Source of the DNA: Robiginitalea sediminis
GTDB taxonomy: Bacteria > Bacteroidota > Bacteroidia > Flavobacteriales > Flavobacteriaceae
DNA length: 64,000 bases
Direction of reading: 5' to 3'
Assembly (NCBI RefSeq): GCF_002198115.1
Contig: NZ_NGNR01000003.1
Location: 429,546 to 493,545 of the forward strand
Below are positions 1,391 to 8,981 of this stretch, in pieces; the first letter of the stretch is position 1, and each line of letters starts with the position of its first letter. A program made the position numbers and the translations under genes. Under the pieces are notes generated by a model. It did no database searches. It was not told where the DNA came from and was given only the letters and a program-made list of their open reading frames with translations.

Positions 1391-2830
1391 TTAGGGTTTG
1401 TTGGTATTGGGGCTCAGGCCCATGGCCCTGCCCTTTTCAAGCATAAAGTCCCTGGCGGGGCCGTGTTCGTTGGGGATTTCCCCCTCCAGGATGGCTTCCT
1501 TTATGGCTTCCTTGATCATGCCGATTTCCCACCCGGGTTTCAGGGAGAAGGCCTCCATGATTTCCTCCCCCGTAACCGGGGGTTGGAAGTTCCGGATCCG
1601 GTCCCGCTCCTCGACCTCGGTGATTTTTTCACGTACCAGTTGGAAATTTTTCAGGTAGCGTTTTTGTTTTTTCGGGTTTTTGGTGGTGATGTCCGCCTCG
1701 CACAGGGTCATCAGGTCTTCTACGTCATCCCCTGCATCGAATACCAGCCTTCTCACCGCAGAATCCGTCACATAATCGTTGGACAGGACTATGGGCCTGG
1801 AACTCATCATAACCAGTTTCTGGACGTATTTCATCCTGTCGTTCAGGGGCAGGCGCAACCTTTTAAAGAGTTTGTACACCATTTTGGATCCCACAAATTC
1901 ATGTCCGTGGAATGTCCAGCCCACCTTGGGGTCGAACCGTTTTGTGGGGGCCTTCCCGATATCGTGGAGCAAGGCGGCCCACCGCAGCCAAAGGTTATCG
2001 GTGGCCTGGGCAATATTATCCACTACCTCCAGGGTGTGCCAGAAGTTATCTTTATGCCGTTGGCCTTCCCGCTCTTCAATCCCCTGCAGGGCTACGAGTT
2101 CCGGAAGGATATACCCCAGCAGCCCGGTTTTGTGCAGCAACCCGAAACCTATGGAGGGTTTATCGGTTGCCATAATTTTATGTAACTCATCGGTAATGCG
2201 CTCCGGGGAAACAATTCGGATCCGGTCTTTCTGCACTCCTATGGCATTGAGCGAATCCCGTTCGATGCGGAAGTCGAGCTGGGCGGCAAACCGAATGGCG
2301 CGGATCATCCGCAGGGGGTCGTCGGAATACGTAGTGGCCGGTTCCAGAGGGGTTCGTATAATCCCTTTTTCCAGGTCATCCAGGCCCCCGAAAGGATCCA
2401 GGAGTTTCCCGAATTCCAAGGGATCCAGCGAAAGGGCCAGGGCATTGATGGTGAAATCCCTCCTGTTCTGGTCGTCCTGAAGGGTACCGTCTTCTACTAT
2501 GGGCTTGCGGCTGTCCCGGGAATAGCTTTCCCGCCGTGCCCCCACAAATTCGAGTTCCAGGTCCCCGTGGCGGACCATGGCCGTCCCGAAATTTTTAAAA
2601 ACCGTCACCTTTGGGTTTCCCGGGAGTTCGTTGGCCACTGCACGGGCCAGACCAATCCCGCTGCCTATGGCCACGATATCGATATCTTTTTTCTGGTCGC
2701 GGCCCAGGAAGAAATCCCGGACATACCCACCAATGACATACGCCTCCAGTCCAAGCTCCTGTGCTGCATGACTCAGGGTCTTGAAAACAGGGTGGGCCAG
2801 CGCCTCCTTATGGTATTTCTGGGTGGTCAT
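1391..2830 (-). CDS. CCA tRNA nucleotidyltransferase / poly(A) polymerase family with HD domain
   Basis: A 479-residue protein of the class II nucleotidyltransferase superfamily. GGYVRD at 34-39 and the metal-binding pair DID at 49-51 mark the catalytic head. The RNA-binding neck follows, and an HD phosphohydrolase-like domain carries LLHDIGK near residue 290. This domain order fits a tRNA CCA-adding enzyme that matures or repairs tRNA 3' ends, although a poly(A) polymerase role cannot be excluded from sequence alone. A promoter with both -33 and -7 elements lies 66 bases upstream of the ATG. The heme A synthase gene follows after 10 bases. Confidence 0.9.
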   Translation of the reverse strand: MTTQKYHKEALAHPVFKTLSHAAQELGLEAYVIGGYVRDFFLGRDQKKDIDIVAIGSGIGLARAVANELPGNPKVTVFKNFGTAMVRHGDLELEFVGARRESYSRDSRKPIVEDGTLQDDQNRRDFTINALALSLDPLEFGKLLDPFGGLDDLEKGIIRTPLEPATTYSDDPLRMIRAIRFAAQLDFRIERDSLNAIGVQKDRIRIVSPERITDELHKIMATDKPSIGFGLLHKTGLLGYILPELVALQGIEEREGQRHKDNFWHTLEVVDNIAQATDNLWLRWAALLHDIGKAPTKRFDPKVGWTFHGHEFVGSKMVYKLFKRLRLPLNDRMKYVQKLVMMSSRPIVLSNDYVTDSAVRRLVFDAGDDVEDLMTLCEADITTKNPKKQKRYLKNFQLVREKITEVEERDRIRNFQPPVTGEEIMEAFSLKPGWEIGMIKEAIKEAILEGEIPNEHGPARDFMLEKGRAMGLSPNTNKP

Positions 2831-2895
2831 CGCTCCAATTCCGGTTCGTACAGGGTCATCCCTGTCCGGGTTTCCCCAAGGGGACTACCGTCTGG

Positions 2896-2903
2896 CAAAG
2901 GTA
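2896..2903 (-). promoter_or_regulatory. Promoter of the CCA-adding enzyme gene
   Basis: Minus-strand TACCTTTG matches TAnnTTTG. A TTTG at 2927-2924 sits 20 bases upstream, a suitable -33 spacing. The predicted leader is about 60 bases. Confidence 0.6.
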
Positions 2904-3003
2904 CCACTTACACCAGAGCTGCTCAAATGGCCGGACCAGTTTTCGCATTCTGAATCATGGCCTTGAACTTCCTGCTTTACGATGGGGCAGGGGCAGCCGG
3001 CCC

Positions 3004-4836
3004 TCAAGGTTTGTTTATCCTGCTGAGGCATTTTAGTTCCTGGTAACGGGAGTATACCCCAAGGGCATTTAAGTATGAGACAACTACGCCCCTTGTACCG
3101 TCTAGAATACCTAGACGCAGGATAAAGTGGTTCAGGAATTTATAAGCGGGCCTCAGGACCATGGGCAGCCACCCGAAGCGTTTTCCCCTTGCGTATTCCT
3201 CCTGTGCCTTCATCTTTCCGTACCGCAGCATTTTCCCTTTATAGTCCTCATAGGAGCGGTAGGAATAGTGGATAAGCTTGTTGTCCAGAATGGCCGTAGA
3301 CCCATCCACATCCAGGGTTTCATGGACAATACGGTTGTTGGTGAACCTGCAGCGGCTTTTTCGGAACAGACGGTAATTCTTGTCGCTCTGCCAGCCGCTG
3401 AAGCGCAATACTTTGTCTTTGAACATAAACCGGCGCCTGAAAAAGAAGGCACTTACCGATTGTTCCGGGTTGTTTATGGTCCGGTAGATTTCATCGAGCA
3501 GGGTATCTGGGATGCGCTCATCTGCATCGGTGAATACCACCCAATCGTGGCTGGCCTGCTCCAGGGCATAGGATTTCTGGTCCGTATAGTTAAGAAAATC
3601 CCGCTGGATGAGCCTGGCCTTGGGATGGGCCCGTACCACTTCTGCCGTCCCGTCTGTACTGTGGGAATCCACCACGATAATCTCATCGGCAAATTTGAGG
3701 TTCTCCAGCACCTGCTCAATATGCAGGATTTCGTTATAGGTAATCAGCAACGCGGATATCGGGACCTTCCTGGGCCCCAGATAAGGCTCGTGGATATGTG
3801 GGCCAAACAGCCACCGGATTTTGGTACGCCGGTAAGGGGAGAGGCGACGGCCTTCAGGCACGCCATGGGTTCTGAGGTAGGCTTCGGTAGCCTGTAGCAT
3901 TCGGGATGCCGACTGCCCGTCTTCATACGGGTGGAAGGCGGCCTTGATCTCCGCCCGCTGCCGGGAGAAAGGGTCGTCCTGTAGGTTGGTTTCCACCAGG
4001 GCCCTGAGGTTGCGGTAATTCGCAGCGTTCTCCCATTGGATTCGCTCGGCAATACTCCTGTAGGATACCACGGGTTTGTCCAACAGCAGGAACTCGTAAA
4101 TCACGGAAGAGGTATCGCTGATCAGTAGGTCTGCCGCGAGCAGATACTGCACAATATTGCTCTCACGGACCACTTCTACCCGAGGGTGCTGGGAGGCAAG
4201 CCCCTCGTATTGCGCCACCACCCCCGGGTCCATCAGGTCGTGAAATTTGATCTGTATGAGATACTTCGGGTCTTCCGCCAGGTCCCGGATTTCGTCCAGC
4301 AGATAGGGGGCTGAGGTCAGGCTTGGGGAAAAGGTGGGGGCATAGAGCAATAAAGTCCCGGCCCCGGCCTGTTCCAGGAGTTGGGTCCTGTGTTGTACGC
4401 AGCGGGCCCGGAGTGTGGCATCCCAGAGGATATCGAGCTTGGGCCACCCGGTTTGCACCACCTCGAAATCCTGGTGCTTTTCCCTGAGGGCCAGAAACCG
4501 CTCAGTAAAATAGGGGCCCTGGGTGAGGTAAAGGTCAAAATAGTGACGGATCCGGAAGTGTCCCTTTTTCTCCCCGGCCAGGCCATGGAAAATCTGGACC
4601 TTTACCCCTTGCAGGTAGTGGGGGACTTCGTTTCCCGGAACAAAGATTGCATCCGGCAGGTAGTGCTGTAACTCCAGGATCCGGGTCGTAAACGGATCTT
4701 CTTTGAAAGGAAAGGACTTCAGCAGATTACCGGTCAGAAACCATATGTATTCATGTCCCTCGCTGCGCAGGGCATCGCGAAGGGGTGCCATGATCCCAAA
4801 GGCATAGGGGTTTTGGCAAAAAAGGACCGTCCTCAT
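3004..4836 (-). CDS. Fusion: CDP-glycerol glycerophosphotransferase-like domain plus family 2 glycosyltransferase
   Basis: A 610-residue two-domain protein. Residues 1 to about 340 resemble TagB/TagF-type polyol-phosphate transferases (VQIFHGLAGEKKGHFRIRHY, QTGWPKLD, then LLISDTSSVIYEF before the nucleotide-binding end). Residues from about 355 to the end are a WaaE/KdtX-like GT2 domain with PISALLITYNE, IIVVDSHSTDGT and VFTDADERI. Known families predict transfer of glycerol- or ribitol-phosphate from a CDP-activated donor together with addition of a sugar, in building a surface glycan. The GT2 half is clearly paralogous to the gene at 7015-7863. It overlaps the upstream nucleotidyltransferase gene by four bases, so the two are one operon. 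Confidence 0.85.
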   Translation of the reverse strand: MRTVLFCQNPYAFGIMAPLRDALRSEGHEYIWFLTGNLLKSFPFKEDPFTTRILELQHYLPDAIFVPGNEVPHYLQGVKVQIFHGLAGEKKGHFRIRHYFDLYLTQGPYFTERFLALREKHQDFEVVQTGWPKLDILWDATLRARCVQHRTQLLEQAGAGTLLLYAPTFSPSLTSAPYLLDEIRDLAEDPKYLIQIKFHDLMDPGVVAQYEGLASQHPRVEVVRESNIVQYLLAADLLISDTSSVIYEFLLLDKPVVSYRSIAERIQWENAANYRNLRALVETNLQDDPFSRQRAEIKAAFHPYEDGQSASRMLQATEAYLRTHGVPEGRRLSPYRRTKIRWLFGPHIHEPYLGPRKVPISALLITYNEILHIEQVLENLKFADEIIVVDSHSTDGTAEVVRAHPKARLIQRDFLNYTDQKSYALEQASHDWVVFTDADERIPDTLLDEIYRTINNPEQSVSAFFFRRRFMFKDKVLRFSGWQSDKNYRLFRKSRCRFTNNRIVHETLDVDGSTAILDNKLIHYSYRSYEDYKGKMLRYGKMKAQEEYARGKRFGWLPMVLRPAYKFLNHFILRLGILDGTRGVVVSYLNALGVYSRYQELKCLSRINKP

Positions 4837-5522
4837 TTACGGAGCATGGAGTTGGCCTTGTCCAGGTCTTGTTTGAAATCGACCTCCATACAATCGAACT
4901 GGGAGATATCCAGCGCCTGGATTTGGACCCCATCCTTCTCGATGGACCGCTCCAGGCCTTTTTCGAAATAATCGTTGTCCTCGCAGGCTTCCAGATGGCT
5001 GATAAATACCTCAAGGTCCTCGGCGGCGATAAAGTTGATGCCCACGGCCTCGCCCAGTCCGCCCTCTACTTCTTTGGACAGCGCTTTGATAGTTCCCTGA
5101 TCGCTCAGGGTGTATTTGACTTCTTCTTCCCCTACCTTACTGGTGTTCACGGCCACAAAGGAGGTTCTCACTTCAATGAAAGGTCGTATGGCTTCCAGGA
5201 GCCTGTGGTCGAAAACCACATCCCCGTTAAGCCAAAGCACATCTTCGCCACGGTTTTTCCGAAGGGCCATCAGGAGGCTTTTGGAGGTATTGGTCTGATC
5301 GAAAAACGGGTTGTAGATATAGGTCAGTTCCGGGAAACGCTCCATGATCAGGTCTTTTTTAAAACCCACCACCACCTGTATGGCATCCAAATGGAAATGG
5401 CGTGAGAGGTTCTCGACCTGCATTTGCATGATGCTCTTTTGGTTTGCCAGGGGTGTAAGAGGCTTCGGAAAAGGATTGCCGAGGCGGGAACCTATACCCG
5501 CGGCCAGGATAATTATTTTCAT
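4833..5522 (-). CDS. Sugar- or choline-phosphate nucleotidyltransferase (LicC-like fold)
   Basis: A 229-residue nucleotidyltransferase. The N-terminus carries the nucleotide-binding signature ILAAGIGSRLGNPFPKPLTP at residues 5-24, and DVLWLNGDVVFD near the middle supplies the metal-binding acidic residues. The compact length matches stand-alone LicC/RfbA-like enzymes that make CDP-choline, CDP-sugars or other NDP-sugars. The exact substrate is not readable from the sequence. It is the first gene of an operon with the CDP-polyol-transferase/GT2 fusion, which suggests it supplies an activated building block for the same polymer. A -7 box lies 63 bases upstream. Confidence 0.85.
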   Translation of the reverse strand: MKIIILAAGIGSRLGNPFPKPLTPLANQKSIMQMQVENLSRHFHLDAIQVVVGFKKDLIMERFPELTYIYNPFFDQTNTSKSLLMALRKNRGEDVLWLNGDVVFDHRLLEAIRPFIEVRTSFVAVNTSKVGEEEVKYTLSDQGTIKALSKEVEGGLGEAVGINFIAAEDLEVFISHLEACEDNDYFEKGLERSIEKDGVQIQALDISQFDCMEVDFKQDLDKANSMLRK

Positions 5523-5584
5523 GCTAAGGAGTCTTCTGGGCAGGCGGGGGAGCCCACTCCGGGAACTGCACCCGCCCGTGGGGT

Positions 5585-5592
5585 CAAAGGTA
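5585..5592 (-). promoter_or_regulatory. -7 box of the nucleotidyltransferase/fusion operon
   Basis: Minus-strand TACCTTTG, a full TAnnTTTG match, 62 bases before the ATG at 5522. It faces away from the divergent box at 5671-5678. Confidence 0.5.
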
Positions 5593-5670
5593 CTTTTTAT
5601 TGGGCAACTACTAAAATAGGCTATCCTAGCCGCTGTGGGTGACCTCCCTTCCCATTGTCACCGATTTGAC

Positions 5671-5678
5671 TACTTTTG
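5671..5678 (+). promoter_or_regulatory. -7 box of the TagD-like cytidylyltransferase gene
   Basis: TACTTTTG matches TAnnTTTG and lies 20 bases before the ATG at 5699. It falls inside the coding span that an upstream GTG (5639) would create, so it decides for the ATG start. Confidence 0.6.
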
Positions 5679-5698
5679 CACTTCAAACTAACGGCATT

Positions 5699-6322
5699 AT
5701 GGATGGTAAGGCAATGGAAGCGCTGGCAAAGCGTTTTCCGGGATGGGAGTTTGTAGTGGCAACGCCTTCGGGGTGGCGTATCTCGGCAACTGACGACCGG
5801 GCAGCCACTCAGGCTTCCGAACTGGTTGGGCAGCTGCGCGCCCTCAACCCTGAGGGCGACCTGGAGATCCGGATCCATGGCTCACAGCCCATTATCGACC
5901 TTTTGGAACGCAAGGCCAAAAAATACCGTCGGATGTACACCTCCGGGTGTTTTGATGTATTCCATTTCGGGCACTTGAATATCCTGGAGCAGTCTAAAGC
6001 CCTCTGCGAATACCTTATCGTAGGGGTTTCCACAGACGAACTCATCGAAAAGGAGAAAGGCCGCCGTCCTGTAATCCCCTATGAGGAACGCGCCCGCGTT
6101 CTGGAGGCCATATCCTATGTAGACCAGGTAATCCCACAGGTGGACAAGGACAAGCAAAAGGTCGTGGATGCCTACCGTATCGATGCCATTTCGGTGGGGG
6201 ATGACTGGAAGGGCCGATATCCCAAGGTGAGCTGCCAGATGGAGTACTTCCCCTATACCAAAAGTATAAGCAGTACCATCCTGAAAGATACCCTCAACCT
6301 CACCCTGCACCCCAAAGCTTAG
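5699..6322 (+). CDS. Glycerol-3-phosphate cytidylyltransferase-like protein (TagD family) with N-terminal extension
   Basis: A 207-residue protein. From residue 79 it is a nucleotidyltransferase of the TagD/ECT type: YTSGCFDVFHFGHLNILEQS contains the HxGH signature, and the end reads YTKSISSTIL, equivalent to the nucleotide-binding RTxGISTT segment. Known relatives make CDP-glycerol or CDP-ethanolamine from CTP and the phospho-alcohol. The first 78 residues are an extra, unassigned domain not present in classical 130-residue TagD proteins. A plausible role is to supply the CDP-activated alcohol for the fusion transferase at 3004-4836. Its stop overlaps the convergent licD-like gene by four bases. 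Confidence 0.85.
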   Translation: MDGKAMEALAKRFPGWEFVVATPSGWRISATDDRAATQASELVGQLRALNPEGDLEIRIHGSQPIIDLLERKAKKYRRMYTSGCFDVFHFGHLNILEQSKALCEYLIVGVSTDELIEKEKGRRPVIPYEERARVLEAISYVDQVIPQVDKDKQKVVDAYRIDAISVGDDWKGRYPKVSCQMEYFPYTKSISSTILKDTLNLTLHPKA

Positions 6323-6903
6323 GAAAGGGCCCGGTCGTCCGTGGTGGTATCCCAGTCTTTTTTAGGGGTTTCCCAATCCCCGTACCTGTAGGTTAGGTAG
6401 CCCTCCGTATCTACCGGAATGCTGTAGGAGTGGCCTCGAAACTCCACAGTGCGGAATTTCTGGTAATAGTTATAAGGCACAGATTTGGTCTTTCCCGCTA
6501 TCATCCAGTAGGCCAGATCATCTTGTCGGTATTTTACGAAGATATCCAGGGTGACCTTCCCTTTGAGCAACCCGAAAAAGCGGCGCTTTCGGATTTTAAC
6601 CATGCGAATGTCCCCTGGGGTAAAAGGAGGGTTACCCGCCTCGAAAGTCCGGATACGGATGCGCAAACCGGCGCCCCTGGCCAGGGAAAGAAAGGTGTCC
6701 AGTTTACCCAATTGGTCGGACATCATGGAGATATCCAGGTCATTGTCCCAGGGCAGCAGCCGGTTTTCCCGGCGGATTCCCAGTAAGGTACCGCCTTCCA
6801 GCCAGTAGGTAACCCCTGCCTGTTCCGCTATGCCGCAAACCTGTTGCAGGAGGGAGTGCGCCTCCTTGAGGTTTTTCCCTTCGAGTGTGATGTCATAGGC
6901 CAT
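6319..6903 (-). CDS. LicD-family phosphotransferase
   Basis: A 194-residue LicD/fukutin-family protein. The family signature is plain: WLEGGTLLGIRRE at 34-46 and PWDNDLDISM at 51-60, with the acidic pair Asp53/Asp55 for metal binding, and the C-terminus has YRYGDWETPKKDW. Family members transfer phosphocholine, glycerol-phosphate or another phospho-alcohol from a CDP donor onto a cell-surface sugar. Next to the CDP-alcohol-forming gene (5699-6322) this supports a phospho-alcohol decorated glycan. The -7 box ends four bases before the ATG, predicting a leaderless mRNA. Confidence 0.88.
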   Translation of the reverse strand: MAYDITLEGKNLKEAHSLLQQVCGIAEQAGVTYWLEGGTLLGIRRENRLLPWDNDLDISMMSDQLGKLDTFLSLARGAGLRIRIRTFEAGNPPFTPGDIRMVKIRKRRFFGLLKGKVTLDIFVKYRQDDLAYWMIAGKTKSVPYNYYQKFRTVEFRGHSYSIPVDTEGYLTYRYGDWETPKKDWDTTTDDRALS

Positions 6904-6907
6904 GCTG

Positions 6908-6915
6908 CAAAGCTA
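6908..6915 (-). promoter_or_regulatory. -7 box of the licD-like gene, four bases before the ATG
   Basis: Minus-strand TAGCTTTG matches TAnnTTTG. Only four bases separate it from the ATG at 6903, so transcription should begin at or within a base or two of the start codon. Confidence 0.55.
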
Positions 6916-7014
6916 CGCATAGCTAACCTAAAACCTGTAGGAATAGGGTATTATACCCGAATAAAGGGGGTCCGAAAACCGGGGATAGCATTAAAGTAGG
7001 TGCCTGTCGGGGTT

Positions 7015-7863
7015 TCAGGCAGCCGAAGAGGCTTCGCCGGCCTTGTAGATTTCCAGGGCGCGGGGTACCGGTTTGACCCAGGTACGTTCCGCCCTTCGGG
7101 CTTCCCGTTCCAGGCGGCGCAGGTACCGGTAACGCTCCACATCTTCCAGGGCACCCAGGTAACAGATGGTGATTCCGTTAATCCCGTCCAGAAAGCCCAG
7201 GCGTACCAGGTAGTTATAGCCGAATTTCCACGCGGGCTTCAGCAGTTGCAGGGCCCAGGAAAAGCGTTTTTCGGAGCGGAAGGCCTCCGCGGCCTTCAGC
7301 CGGCCGTACATGAGCATTTTCCGGCGGTAGTCTTTAAAGTTTTTGTAGCAATAATGGGTGAGGCGGGCCTTTAACGCTCCAGTCTTCCCCTTAACCTCCA
7401 GGCGTTCGTGAACCAGGCGGGATTCGCTGTATTTGGCCCCGGAACGCCGGAACAAACGGATATTCTTATCGGTTTGCCAGCCGCTGAACCTCAGGGGCCT
7501 TTCCCCGAACATAAAGTCGCGGTAAAACCAATAGGCATCCACGTCTGCCGGTGCTGCCGATAGGGTTCCCAGGATTTCGGCTTTCAAGGAATCGCCCACG
7601 ACCTCATCGGCATCTATAAAGAGGACCCAGTCGTTATTGGCGTGCCGGAGGGCAAAGTTTTTCTGGGCCGTAAAGTTCTGGAACGGATGCTGGATCACTT
7701 TGACCTGGGGCTGCCGGAGCAGGTACTCATAGGTGCCGTCTGTACTGTAGGAGTCTACCACGATGATCTCGGAGGCAAAGGCCACCGAGGCGAGGCAACG
7801 CTCGATGTTCTCACGCTCGTTGTAGGTGATAATTAGGGCGGTAACTGCAGTGCGATACGGCAT
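7015..7863 (-). CDS. Family 2 glycosyltransferase, WaaE/KdtX-like
   Basis: A 282-residue GT2 enzyme. TALIITYNERENIERCL, EIIVVDSYSTDGT and VLFIDADEVV are the A-fold donor-binding segments, with DAD as the metal-binding motif. The middle reads LRFSGWQTDKNIRLFRRS, closely matching LRFSGWQSDKNYRLFRKS in the C-terminal half of the fusion protein at 3004-4836, so the two are paralogues. WaaE/KdtX relatives add a glucose or heptose to LPS core. It is a single gene with no obvious strong -7 box upstream. Its acceptor is probably the lipid A-core or the glycan made by the neighbouring genes. Confidence 0.88.
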   Translation of the reverse strand: MPYRTAVTALIITYNERENIERCLASVAFASEIIVVDSYSTDGTYEYLLRQPQVKVIQHPFQNFTAQKNFALRHANNDWVLFIDADEVVGDSLKAEILGTLSAAPADVDAYWFYRDFMFGERPLRFSGWQTDKNIRLFRRSGAKYSESRLVHERLEVKGKTGALKARLTHYCYKNFKDYRRKMLMYGRLKAAEAFRSEKRFSWALQLLKPAWKFGYNYLVRLGFLDGINGITICYLGALEDVERYRYLRRLEREARRAERTWVKPVPRALEIYKAGEASSAA

Positions 7864-8063: not shown

Positions 8064-8879
8064 CTAAACGGCCACATCGTATTCCCTGAGCGCATCGTTC
8101 AGGGAAGTCTTTTTGTCTGTACTTTCTTTACGCGTTCCGATAATGAGGGCACAGGAAACCTGGTAGTCGCCGGCCGGAAATGACTTGGTAAAGCTGCCCG
8201 GGATTACCACAGAACGGGCAGGTACCCGTCCCTTGTATTCCACGGGGGCGTCCCCGCTGACATCGATAATTTTGGTAGACGCTGTCAGGACCACATTGGC
8301 TCCCAGGACGGCCTCCCGCTCCACGCGCACCCCTTCTACCACAATACAGCGGCTCCCGATAAAGGCGTTGTCCTCCACAATAACCGGGGCGGCCTGCAGG
8401 GGTTCCAGGACCCCGCCAATGCCCACGCCCCCGCTCAGGTGCACGTTCTTGCCGATCTGGGCGCAGCTTCCTACGGTGGCCCAGGTATCGACCATAGTCC
8501 CCTCGTCCACATAAGCCCCGATGTTGACATAGCTCGGCATCAGGATGGTGCCCGGTGCAATATAGGCTCCGTGGCGGGCAACTGCATGGGGAACCACCCG
8601 TACCCCTTTCCCCGCGTATCCGCGTTTGAGGGGTATTTTATCGTGGTATTCGAAAATCCCGGCTTCCAGGGTTTCCATTTTCTGGATGGGGAAATACAGC
8701 ACTACGGCCTTTTTGACCCATTCCTCAATGTTCCACCCATTGGGGGTAGGGCTGGCGCAGCGCAGGGCGCCCTGGTCCAGCAGGTCCACTACTTCCCGGA
8801 TGGCTTTTTGGGTTTCTGGGTTTTTCAGGAGTCCGCGGTCTTCCCACGCGGCTTCGATGCTTTGGCGCAATGCTTCCAT
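8064..8879 (-). CDS. dapD: 2,3,4,5-tetrahydropyridine-2,6-dicarboxylate N-succinyltransferase
   Basis: A 271-residue enzyme of the succinylase branch of lysine and meso-diaminopimelate synthesis, transferring a succinyl group from succinyl-CoA. It has an N-terminal helical domain and a left-handed beta-helix made of hexapeptide repeats (VNIGAYVDEGTMVDTWATVG, then CAQIGKNVHLSGGVGIGG). I chose ATG 8879 over the open frame reaching 8972, because the protein then starts MEALRQSIEAAWEDRGLL like known DapD proteins and the -7 box at 8901-8908 would otherwise lie inside the gene. It is a monocistronic gene, divergent from ruvX. Confidence 0.95.
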   Translation of the reverse strand: MEALRQSIEAAWEDRGLLKNPETQKAIREVVDLLDQGALRCASPTPNGWNIEEWVKKAVVLYFPIQKMETLEAGIFEYHDKIPLKRGYAGKGVRVVPHAVARHGAYIAPGTILMPSYVNIGAYVDEGTMVDTWATVGSCAQIGKNVHLSGGVGIGGVLEPLQAAPVIVEDNAFIGSRCIVVEGVRVEREAVLGANVVLTASTKIIDVSGDAPVEYKGRVPARSVVIPGSFTKSFPAGDYQVSCALIIGTRKESTDKKTSLNDALREYDVAV

Positions 8880-8900
8880 GGTCTGGGTCTGTATTTTGGG

Positions 8901-8908
8901 CAAAGATA
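8901..8908 (-). promoter_or_regulatory. Promoter of dapD
   Basis: Minus-strand TATCTTTG matches TAnnTTTG, and TTTTG stands about 23 bases further upstream as a -33 candidate. It lies 21 bases before the ATG at 8879 and fixes that start. Confidence 0.6.
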
Positions 8909-8960
8909 GGACTACGGGGCGGGGCGGCCAGCAAAATTTAGAGCTGTAACGATTTATCCG

Positions 8961-8968
8961 TAATTTTG
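8961..8968 (+). promoter_or_regulatory. -7 box of ruvX-def
   Basis: TAATTTTG matches TAnnTTTG and lies 13 bases before the GTG start at 8982. A very short leader is predicted. Confidence 0.55.
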
Positions 8969-8981
8969 TCAAAAATTTCCG

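Follow-up and report, generated by a model that had tools for sequence, protein, structure and literature searches.

The window analysed here is a stretch of 64,000 nucleotides from the flavobacterium Robiginitalea sediminis, in which five intact open reading frames occupy positions 3004-7863 between two conserved anchor genes: one for a pcnB-like tRNA nucleotidyltransferase/poly(A) polymerase (1391..2830, minus strand; PF01743) on one flank and dapD (8064..8972, minus strand; PF14805) on the other. The first of the five (3004..4836, minus strand) encodes a TagB/F-like GT-B transferase (residues 1-340; PF04464, 2.9e-17) fused to a GT2 glycosyltransferase (residues 341-610; PF00535, 2e-16), and the same fusion is found in 36 of 80 related loci. 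The start of this gene overlaps by 4 bp a gene (4833..5522, minus strand; PF12804 NTP_transf_3, 5.2e-14) for a LicC/PntC/IPCT-like cytidylyltransferase, hereafter NTP. The third encodes a TagD-like cytidylyltransferase (5699..6322; PF01467, 2.8e-20); its reading frame opens at 5639, and alignment indicates that translation probably starts at the ATG at 5699, giving 207 amino acids. It is followed by the gene for a LicD-family phosphotransferase of 194 amino acids (6319..6903, minus strand; PF04991, 1e-17), whose stop overlaps that of the TagD-like gene by 2 bases, and by a stand-alone GT2 glycosyltransferase gene (7015..7863, minus strand; PF00535, 6.7e-22), a relative of the fused GT2 domain that itself has relatives in the same locus elsewhere. 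All domain matches of the five genes lie above the curated cut-offs, and the five genes and family assignments of the first-pass annotation stand. Its description of both GT2 modules as WaaE/KdtX-like can be upheld only at the level of GT2. Two further details are corrected here: the TagD-like gene lies on the plus strand, opposite to the other four, and LicD is of the short form. A search of the genome revealed no further genes of the LicD or Glyphos_transf families.

Many Flavobacteriaceae, including Arenibacter, Maribacter, Winogradskyella, Cellulophaga and Flavobacterium, have the same genes in the interval from dapD to pcnB, and among the 80 related loci dapD is present in 73 and pcnB in 66. 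The set is kept in dozens of genomes, far above chance. Comparison of gene neighbourhoods thus showed that the homologues co-occur and stay together, and the scattering that would have told against a common function was not seen. Of the 80 loci, 14 belong to Arenibacter, and LicD and TagD-like genes are present in 12 of these. The GC content of the cassette (54.0%, against 56.4% for the window), together with the strict synteny, speaks against a recent foreign island; the stretch, at first called an island, is a resident, syntenic locus. Elsewhere the dapD-pcnB slot is filled with genes for GT9 (heptosyltransferase-like), Stealth, TupA and WaaE-like GT2 proteins, and neither Wzx nor Wzy was found in it. 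Because of this content, we favour the view that the slot is a variable glycosyltransferase locus of LPS/LOS-core type. The original proposal of a polyol-phosphate modified LPS or capsule is thereby narrowed: a surface-glycan modification of phospho-alcohol type is retained and, of the two, LPS is favoured.

Where a single shared pathway had been proposed, the cassette resolves into two separable modules: NTP-TagB/F, which is obligatory, and TagD-LicD, which is optional and changes position. NTP directly precedes the TagB/F-like gene in all 79 readable loci (the 80th ends at a contig edge). When orthologues of the two were searched separately in 149 genomes of the family, both were detected in the identical 13, a distribution with a chance of about 6e-19 if relatedness is ignored. 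The exceptions, with TagB/F and no NTP, are genome G149 and two incomplete genomes. G149 lacks NTP and has, in the same row as GT2 and TagB/F, a glycerol-3-phosphate cytidylyltransferase of the classical kind (168.8 bits, above the cut-off); this enzyme may serve LicD and not TagB/F. The best PDB profile match of NTP was PntC (1.7e-7), with LicC next, and a Foldseek search with its predicted structure (pLDDT 87) returned only CTP-dependent LicC, PntC or IPCT chains at ranks 1-14, which places the fold nearest LicC/PntC/IPCT within NTP_transferase. In an alignment only about 20% identical, the invariant residues N99 and E191 fall on D105 and D192, the acidic pair that holds the amine in LicC. 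The GT-B domain falls within the TagB/TagF CDP-glycerol transferase family (PF04464, 63.1 bits against a cut-off of 22.1) and H84 and H199, which correspond to both TagF-type catalytic His positions, are invariant; scores for the TagB, TarF and TarL NCBIfam equivalogs did not exceed 35.9 bits against cut-offs of 500-1000.

In 30 of 30 loci, the TagD-like and LicD genes are immediate neighbours in convergent orientation. Most loci have the pair upstream of NTP and five have it downstream of TagB/F, so that it has moved as a unit. The TagD-like gene is absent from more than half of the loci that contain NTP-TagB/F. LicD occurs without a TagD-like gene in G024, L089, L136 and L146; these cases, together with those of TagB/F without NTP, show that both pairings have exceptions outside the main group. 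The TagD-like protein has an N-terminal extension of about 75 residues and contains the HxGH motif as HFGH or HYGH, with H89 and H92 invariant. In place of RTxGISTT it has YTxxxSST, so that a Tyr occupies the position of Arg113, a residue essential in glycerol-3-phosphate cytidylyltransferase (PMC8262930), in all 18 rows of the alignment, the window's included. The protein scores 103.7 bits against the TIGR01518 equivalog cut-off of 165.4, which is passed by the G149 enzyme described above and by that of G076 (177.3 bits). LicD (PF04991, 65.4 bits against a cut-off of 22.6) conserves the core GGTLLG...PWDNDxDxS, in which GGTLLG and D53, D55 and D57 are invariant, and its only confident solved relative is fukutin-related protein (3.1e-10).

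In partial distance correlations, given DapD and calculated over the same 28 loci, LicD-TagD reached 0.85 and NTP-TagB/F 0.73, against 0.43-0.50 for the cross pairs, and pairing by neighbour exceeded pairing by family in 2000 of 2000 resamples. The observed pairing is the reverse of the family expectation (TagD with TagB/F, LicC with LicD), and the enzymes thus appear to have other partners than their well-known relatives do, with the proviso that adjacent genes are co-inherited and tight co-evolution need not imply a common substrate. In the family-canonical arrangement, the TagD-like enzyme would make CDP-glycerol for TagB/F, and NTP would supply LicD with CDP-choline or a comparable donor. 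The characterised Gram-positive relatives work in that way, the solved structures nearest the TagD-like enzyme and NTP include GCT and LicC, respectively, G024 retains NTP and LicD with no TagD-like match, and in Cyclobacteriaceae loci LicD adjoins a second NTP-family gene. We nevertheless consider this arrangement unlikely, given the constant company of TagB/F and NTP, the frequent loss of the TagD-like gene, the weaker co-evolution of the cross pairs, the missing Arg and sub-threshold GCT score of the TagD-like enzyme, and the lack of an above-cut-off choline kinase match in the window's genome. The Gram-positive-style donors first suggested are not upheld: the residue essential in the classical enzyme (PMC8262930) is replaced, and nothing convincing points to activation of choline or inositol.

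The comparison with known systems follows the same lines. The lic pathway, in which LicC and LicD decorate Haemophilus LPS and the teichoic acid of pneumococci with phosphocholine, shares with the cassette a LicC-like fold, a LicD-family transferase, the CDP-donor logic and an LPS-core-like setting; it differs in that the cassette has no LicA or LicB alongside, pairs LicD with a TagD-like enzyme and NTP with TagB/F, and has in NTP an invariant Asn (N99) aligned, at about 20% identity, to the acidic amine ligand of LicC/PntC (PMC6697681). The teichoic-acid system TagD/TagB/TagF and the TagF-like capsule polymerases Cps3D and Cps7D of Gram-negative bacteria likewise combine a GT-B CDP-alcohol transferase with both His residues and a GCT-like cytidylyltransferase, whereas here TagB/F is obligately associated with a LicC-type and not a TagD-type synthase, the TagD-like enzyme lacks the Arg of RTxGISTT, polymer export genes are absent and TagB/F is fused to GT2.

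Candidate donors were narrowed by genome content. PntC, of phosphonate tailoring (PMC6697681), is the closest profile match to NTP; however, PEP mutase has no match in the window's genome, which makes aminoethylphosphonate unlikely there, and reached the cut-off in only 2 of 19 carriers, away from the locus. Inositol-phosphate is unlikely, since its synthase is absent from the window's genome and occurs in 1 of 17 carriers. A dedicated choline kinase was not found in the window's genome, the sole kinase-like match being below the cut-off; a scavenging route leaves choline with some residual probability. Glycerol-3-phosphate dehydrogenase is present in 17 of 17 carriers, the classical enzyme of G149 also points towards glycerol-3-phosphate, and glycerol-phosphate or phosphoglycerate is a plausible donor alcohol for the NTP-TagB/F module. 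There is precedent in Caulobacter, whose CpgD, a member of the NTP family, makes CDP-glycerate for ceramide diphosphoglycerate (PMC12275187): by its description, CpgD is likewise a Gram-negative cytidylyltransferase acting on a three-carbon phosphate of central metabolism, and differs in that its acceptor is a lipid and not a glycan. Fukutin-related protein, a LicD-family ribitol-phosphate transferase that uses CDP-ribitol (PMC11982090), is a precedent for LicD folds acting on CDP-polyols, although it is eukaryotic, larger and has another acceptor.

Alternatively, NTP could activate a sugar-1-phosphate and the GT-B domain could be an ordinary nucleotide-sugar glycosyltransferase, so that this module would add a sugar and not a phospho-alcohol. 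In the AlphaFold model of TagB/F-GT2 (pLDDT 88), the GT-B part matched TagF at Z 22.7, TarL at Z 21.7 and UDP-GlcNAc 2-epimerases at Z 24, a ranking that fails to separate TagF from the equally close epimerases. In the fold comparisons, GlmU-type enzymes and these epimerases come out shortly behind or above. At the sequence level, Epimerase_2 (PF02350) gave a weak match (7.8e-7) below its cut-off, against 2.9e-17, above cut-off, for Glyphos_transf. With the CTP alcohol-phosphate branch favoured for NTP by sequence and Foldseek, and both TagF-type His positions retained, we regard the addition of a sugar as quite improbable. It is about as improbable that the two donors serve a capsule or a polymer resembling teichoic acid and not the LPS core. 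Gram-negative bacteria do have TagF-like capsule polymerases (PMC8262930) and the capsule polymerase Cps3D is among the structural matches of the GT-B part, but, as had been noted for the window, the related loci read showed no recognisable flippase or polymerase next to the cassette, nor a gene for capsule export. The TagB/F domain, moreover, consists of a GT-B unit of 340 residues and nothing else, like single-step transferases, and the other genes of the slot (GT9, Stealth, TupA and WaaE-like GT2) fit a core locus.

Overall, we give slightly better than even weight to an LPS/LOS-core type locus in which each of two separate CDP-donor modules adds a small group through a phosphodiester, so that two phosphate-linked small groups are probably attached to inner sugars of the outer membrane. 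From the observed gene content, synteny, co-occurrence, co-evolution, folds and conserved or lost motifs we infer LPS core as the acceptor, CTP as the co-substrate, the donor-acceptor pairings and the nature of the alcohols. The GT2 enzymes would assemble a part of the sugar chain of the core. NTP would couple CTP to a common three-carbon phosphate, with glycerol-phosphate or phosphoglycerate favoured, and the TagB/F-like domain would move the phospho-group onto the core glycan as a single decoration and not a polymer; in the window's genome the GT2 fused to this domain would make the acceptor. In the optional module, whose place in the locus varies, a second phosphorylated small molecule would be activated by the TagD-like enzyme and transferred to a sugar by LicD. 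In favour of this reading, phosphodiester bonds are reported to join monosaccharides in the LOS core of Arenibacter certesii (PMC3210612); the Arenibacter loci compared here are from other genomes.

In marine Bacteroidota, the genetics of the LPS core has been mapped only sparsely. Work naming the dapD-pcnB cassette was not found in the open papers searched, where the Capnocytophaga capsule literature gave no gene link and a Cellulophaga lipid A paper no core data. It is tentatively possible that the cassette represents a widespread, re-wired form of marine flavobacterial LPS-core tailoring, in which a LicC-type enzyme obligately feeds a TagB/F-type transferase, a TagD-type enzyme with an Arg-to-Tyr exchange feeds LicD with an undescribed CDP-donor, and one core receives two phosphodiester decorations. 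The conserved address makes core-modifying genes easy to locate throughout a large marine family, and makes testable the phosphodiester-linked residues of the Arenibacter LOS core, a reported feature whose genes are not known. Should the exchange of partners prove real, names such as TagD, LicC, LicD and TagF are no guide to which CDP-donor is paired with which transferase, although much annotation assumes that they are.

The first-pass annotation had described five genes at 3004-7863 as a glycan island, and the set stands as described, with all reading frames intact and Pfam matches above curated cut-offs. It comprises a TagB/F-like protein whose GT-B part is fused to a GT2 module (3004..4836, minus strand), NTP, a LicC/PntC-like cytidylyltransferase (4833..5522, minus), a TagD-like gene (5699..6322, probably starting at 5699), LicD (6319..6903, minus, 194 aa) and a stand-alone GT2 (7015..7863, minus). 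The TagD-like gene lies on the plus strand, opposite to the other four, and its stop codon overlaps that of LicD. A search of the 3.3 Mb genome recovered no LicD or Glyphos_transf genes beyond those of the cassette. By Pfam, it is bordered by pcnB and a ctaA/COX15 gene at its pcnB end and by dapD, ruvX and def at the opposite end; the Sua5/YciO-like gene that in relatives usually separates cassette and pcnB is absent at this spot (2831-3003).

The term 'island' did not survive comparison with relatives, in which the cassette is a resident locus keeping the same dapD/pcnB address. LicD adjoins dapD in every LicD-bearing genome of a 149-genome family sample, and in each contig that reaches far enough pcnB is found at the other end. 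A set of 80 loci was collected by a scan with the NTP alignment and is thus biased toward NTP; it spans Arenibacter, Maribacter, Winogradskyella, Cellulophaga, Flavobacterium, Salinimicrobium, Muriicola and others (2 of the 80 are from Cyclobacteriaceae), with dapD present in 73/80 and pcnB in 66/80. Genomes that lack the NTP cassette fill this slot with GT9 heptosyltransferase-like, Stealth, TupA, GT2 and GT4 genes, along with TagB/F-like proteins of a more distant kind. Because of these gene types, and because flippase and polymerase are missing, the earlier choice between LPS and capsule tips towards the former, and the locus is probably of an LPS/LOS core type.

The distant TagB/F-like subfamily (28-33% identity) occurs in 13 family genomes (e.g. 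L074:8064-9131 and L076:9010-10098, stretches from relatives), and in 5/5 genomes whose surroundings were read (L074-L078) it occupies the dapD-pcnB slot without NTP. Its motifs deviate (HGF...KRPE, VLHPKLP, DTTSAIQEF), hinting that it may use another donor. A conserved protein of ~250 aa without a Pfam match recurs in the locus on the opposite strand (L010:13503-14255 and relatives), and in one LicD-less locus a YrbL-like protein (PF10707; L066:5431-6030) lies directly upstream of NTP, where other loci have similar-sized genes. In two Cyclobacteriaceae MAG loci (L147, L148) the NTP-TagB/F pair adjoins a LicD having its own second LicC-like gene, accompanied by NeuA- and NeuB-looking genes and a polysialyltransferase-like GT52; L147 also has a second LicD.

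In known systems TagD pairs with TagB/F and LicC with LicD, whereas here neighbourhood and co-evolution give the opposite pairing. In place of the single shared pathway first proposed, two modules are seen. A TagB/F-like gene directly follows NTP in 79/80 loci, the remaining locus ending at a contig end. In an unbiased test on the 149 family genomes, NTP orthologues and close TagB/F orthologues, sought separately, fell in the same 13. The TagD-like gene and LicD are convergent neighbours in 30/30 cases among the 80 loci, the pair lying downstream of TagB/F rather than upstream of NTP in 5. LicD occurs in 6/149 family genomes and the extended TagD-like gene in 5/149, all 5 with LicD; on the LicD tree, TagD-like presence switches 2 times, against 10 with shuffled labels. 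Across 28 loci, distance correlations controlled for DapD were 0.85 for LicD/TagD-like and 0.73 for NTP/TagB/F, with the four cross pairs at 0.43 to 0.50; the neighbour pairing beat the alternative in all resamples, although linkage alone can raise such values. The evidence is therefore strong that the modules are two units of inheritance and, given the linkage effect, moderate that they are two biochemical units. Beyond the main group, the pairing rule is looser: one relative (G024) has LicD and NTP with no TagD-like match, and another (G149) combines LicD and TagB/F with a classical glycerol-3-phosphate cytidylyltransferase and lacks NTP. In 17 loci, and nowhere else in the loci, a small HAD-like gene stands ahead of the TagD-like/LicD pair; its product, of 125 residues with an unusual DAWNT motif, always immediately precedes the pair (L082:3469-3849 and 16 other loci), and the gene is absent from the window.

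Profile searches with NTP returned PntC first and LicC next, and for its structural model (pLDDT 87) ranks 1 to 14 were LicC, PntC and inositol-phosphate cytidylyltransferases. The amine-contacting acidic residue is E104 in PntC and D105 in LicC (PMC6697681); in an alignment of ~20% identity the invariant N99 of NTP occupies this position, which would fit a non-cationic substrate. The TagB/F-like protein has a GT-B fold, to which UDP-GlcNAc 2-epimerases are equally close, and both TagF-type His positions are invariant. LicD is short with a complete active-site core, and its only confident solved relative is fukutin-related protein, a CDP-ribitol enzyme. The TagD-like protein retains HxGH, and RTxGISTT has become YTxxxSST in all alignment rows reaching the motif. 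Given that B. subtilis TagD cannot work without Arg113 of this motif (PMC8262930), and that the TagD-like protein scores below the GCT equivalog cut-off, the name glycerol-3-phosphate cytidylyltransferase is not warranted. This Tyr variant is also present in O-antigen-type clusters and in cytidylyltransferase-PEP mutase fusions (L183:1513-2811, L179:490-1788). Elsewhere, a polysaccharide cluster (G075, L073:4412-11099) places an NTP relative (33% identical) beside a full-length Glyphos_transf gene and genes for a class II aldolase, an FGGY kinase and an iron alcohol dehydrogenase, which together may form an entire, uncharacterised CDP-polyol pathway. In G076 a glycerol-3-phosphate dehydrogenase and a classical glycerol-3-phosphate cytidylyltransferase are combined in one polypeptide (L168:535-1896), which appears to make CDP-glycerol on its own.

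As the locus holds no dedicated alcohol-phosphate synthase, the substrates should be common metabolites, with glycerol-phosphate, or phosphoglycerate by the precedent of the Caulobacter CDP-glycerate synthase CpgD (PMC12275187), as candidates. Among carrier genomes, inositol-phosphate synthase was found in 1/17 and PEP mutase over cut-off in 2/19; choline-kinase-like matches were weak, exceeding the cut-off in 2/17, the window's genome not among them. Glycerol-3-phosphate dehydrogenase was present in 17/17, weak evidence as the enzyme is nearly universal. For module 1 (NTP and TagB/F-like) we tentatively favour glycerol, at somewhat less than an even chance, because in G149 the true glycerol-3-phosphate cytidylyltransferase adjoins TagB/F in place of NTP.

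According to a review, the core of Arenibacter certesii contains monosaccharides linked via phosphodiester bonds (PMC3210612). The NTP-TagB/F pair is found in 14 Arenibacter loci, 12 of which also carry the TagD-LicD pair, a suggestive link drawn at genus level, the A. certesii locus not being among them. The bridges in that species lead to sugars, and Stealth-type enzymes could make them too. Overall, the cassette is real and conserved in these bacteria, its parts ordinary and their partnering unusual.
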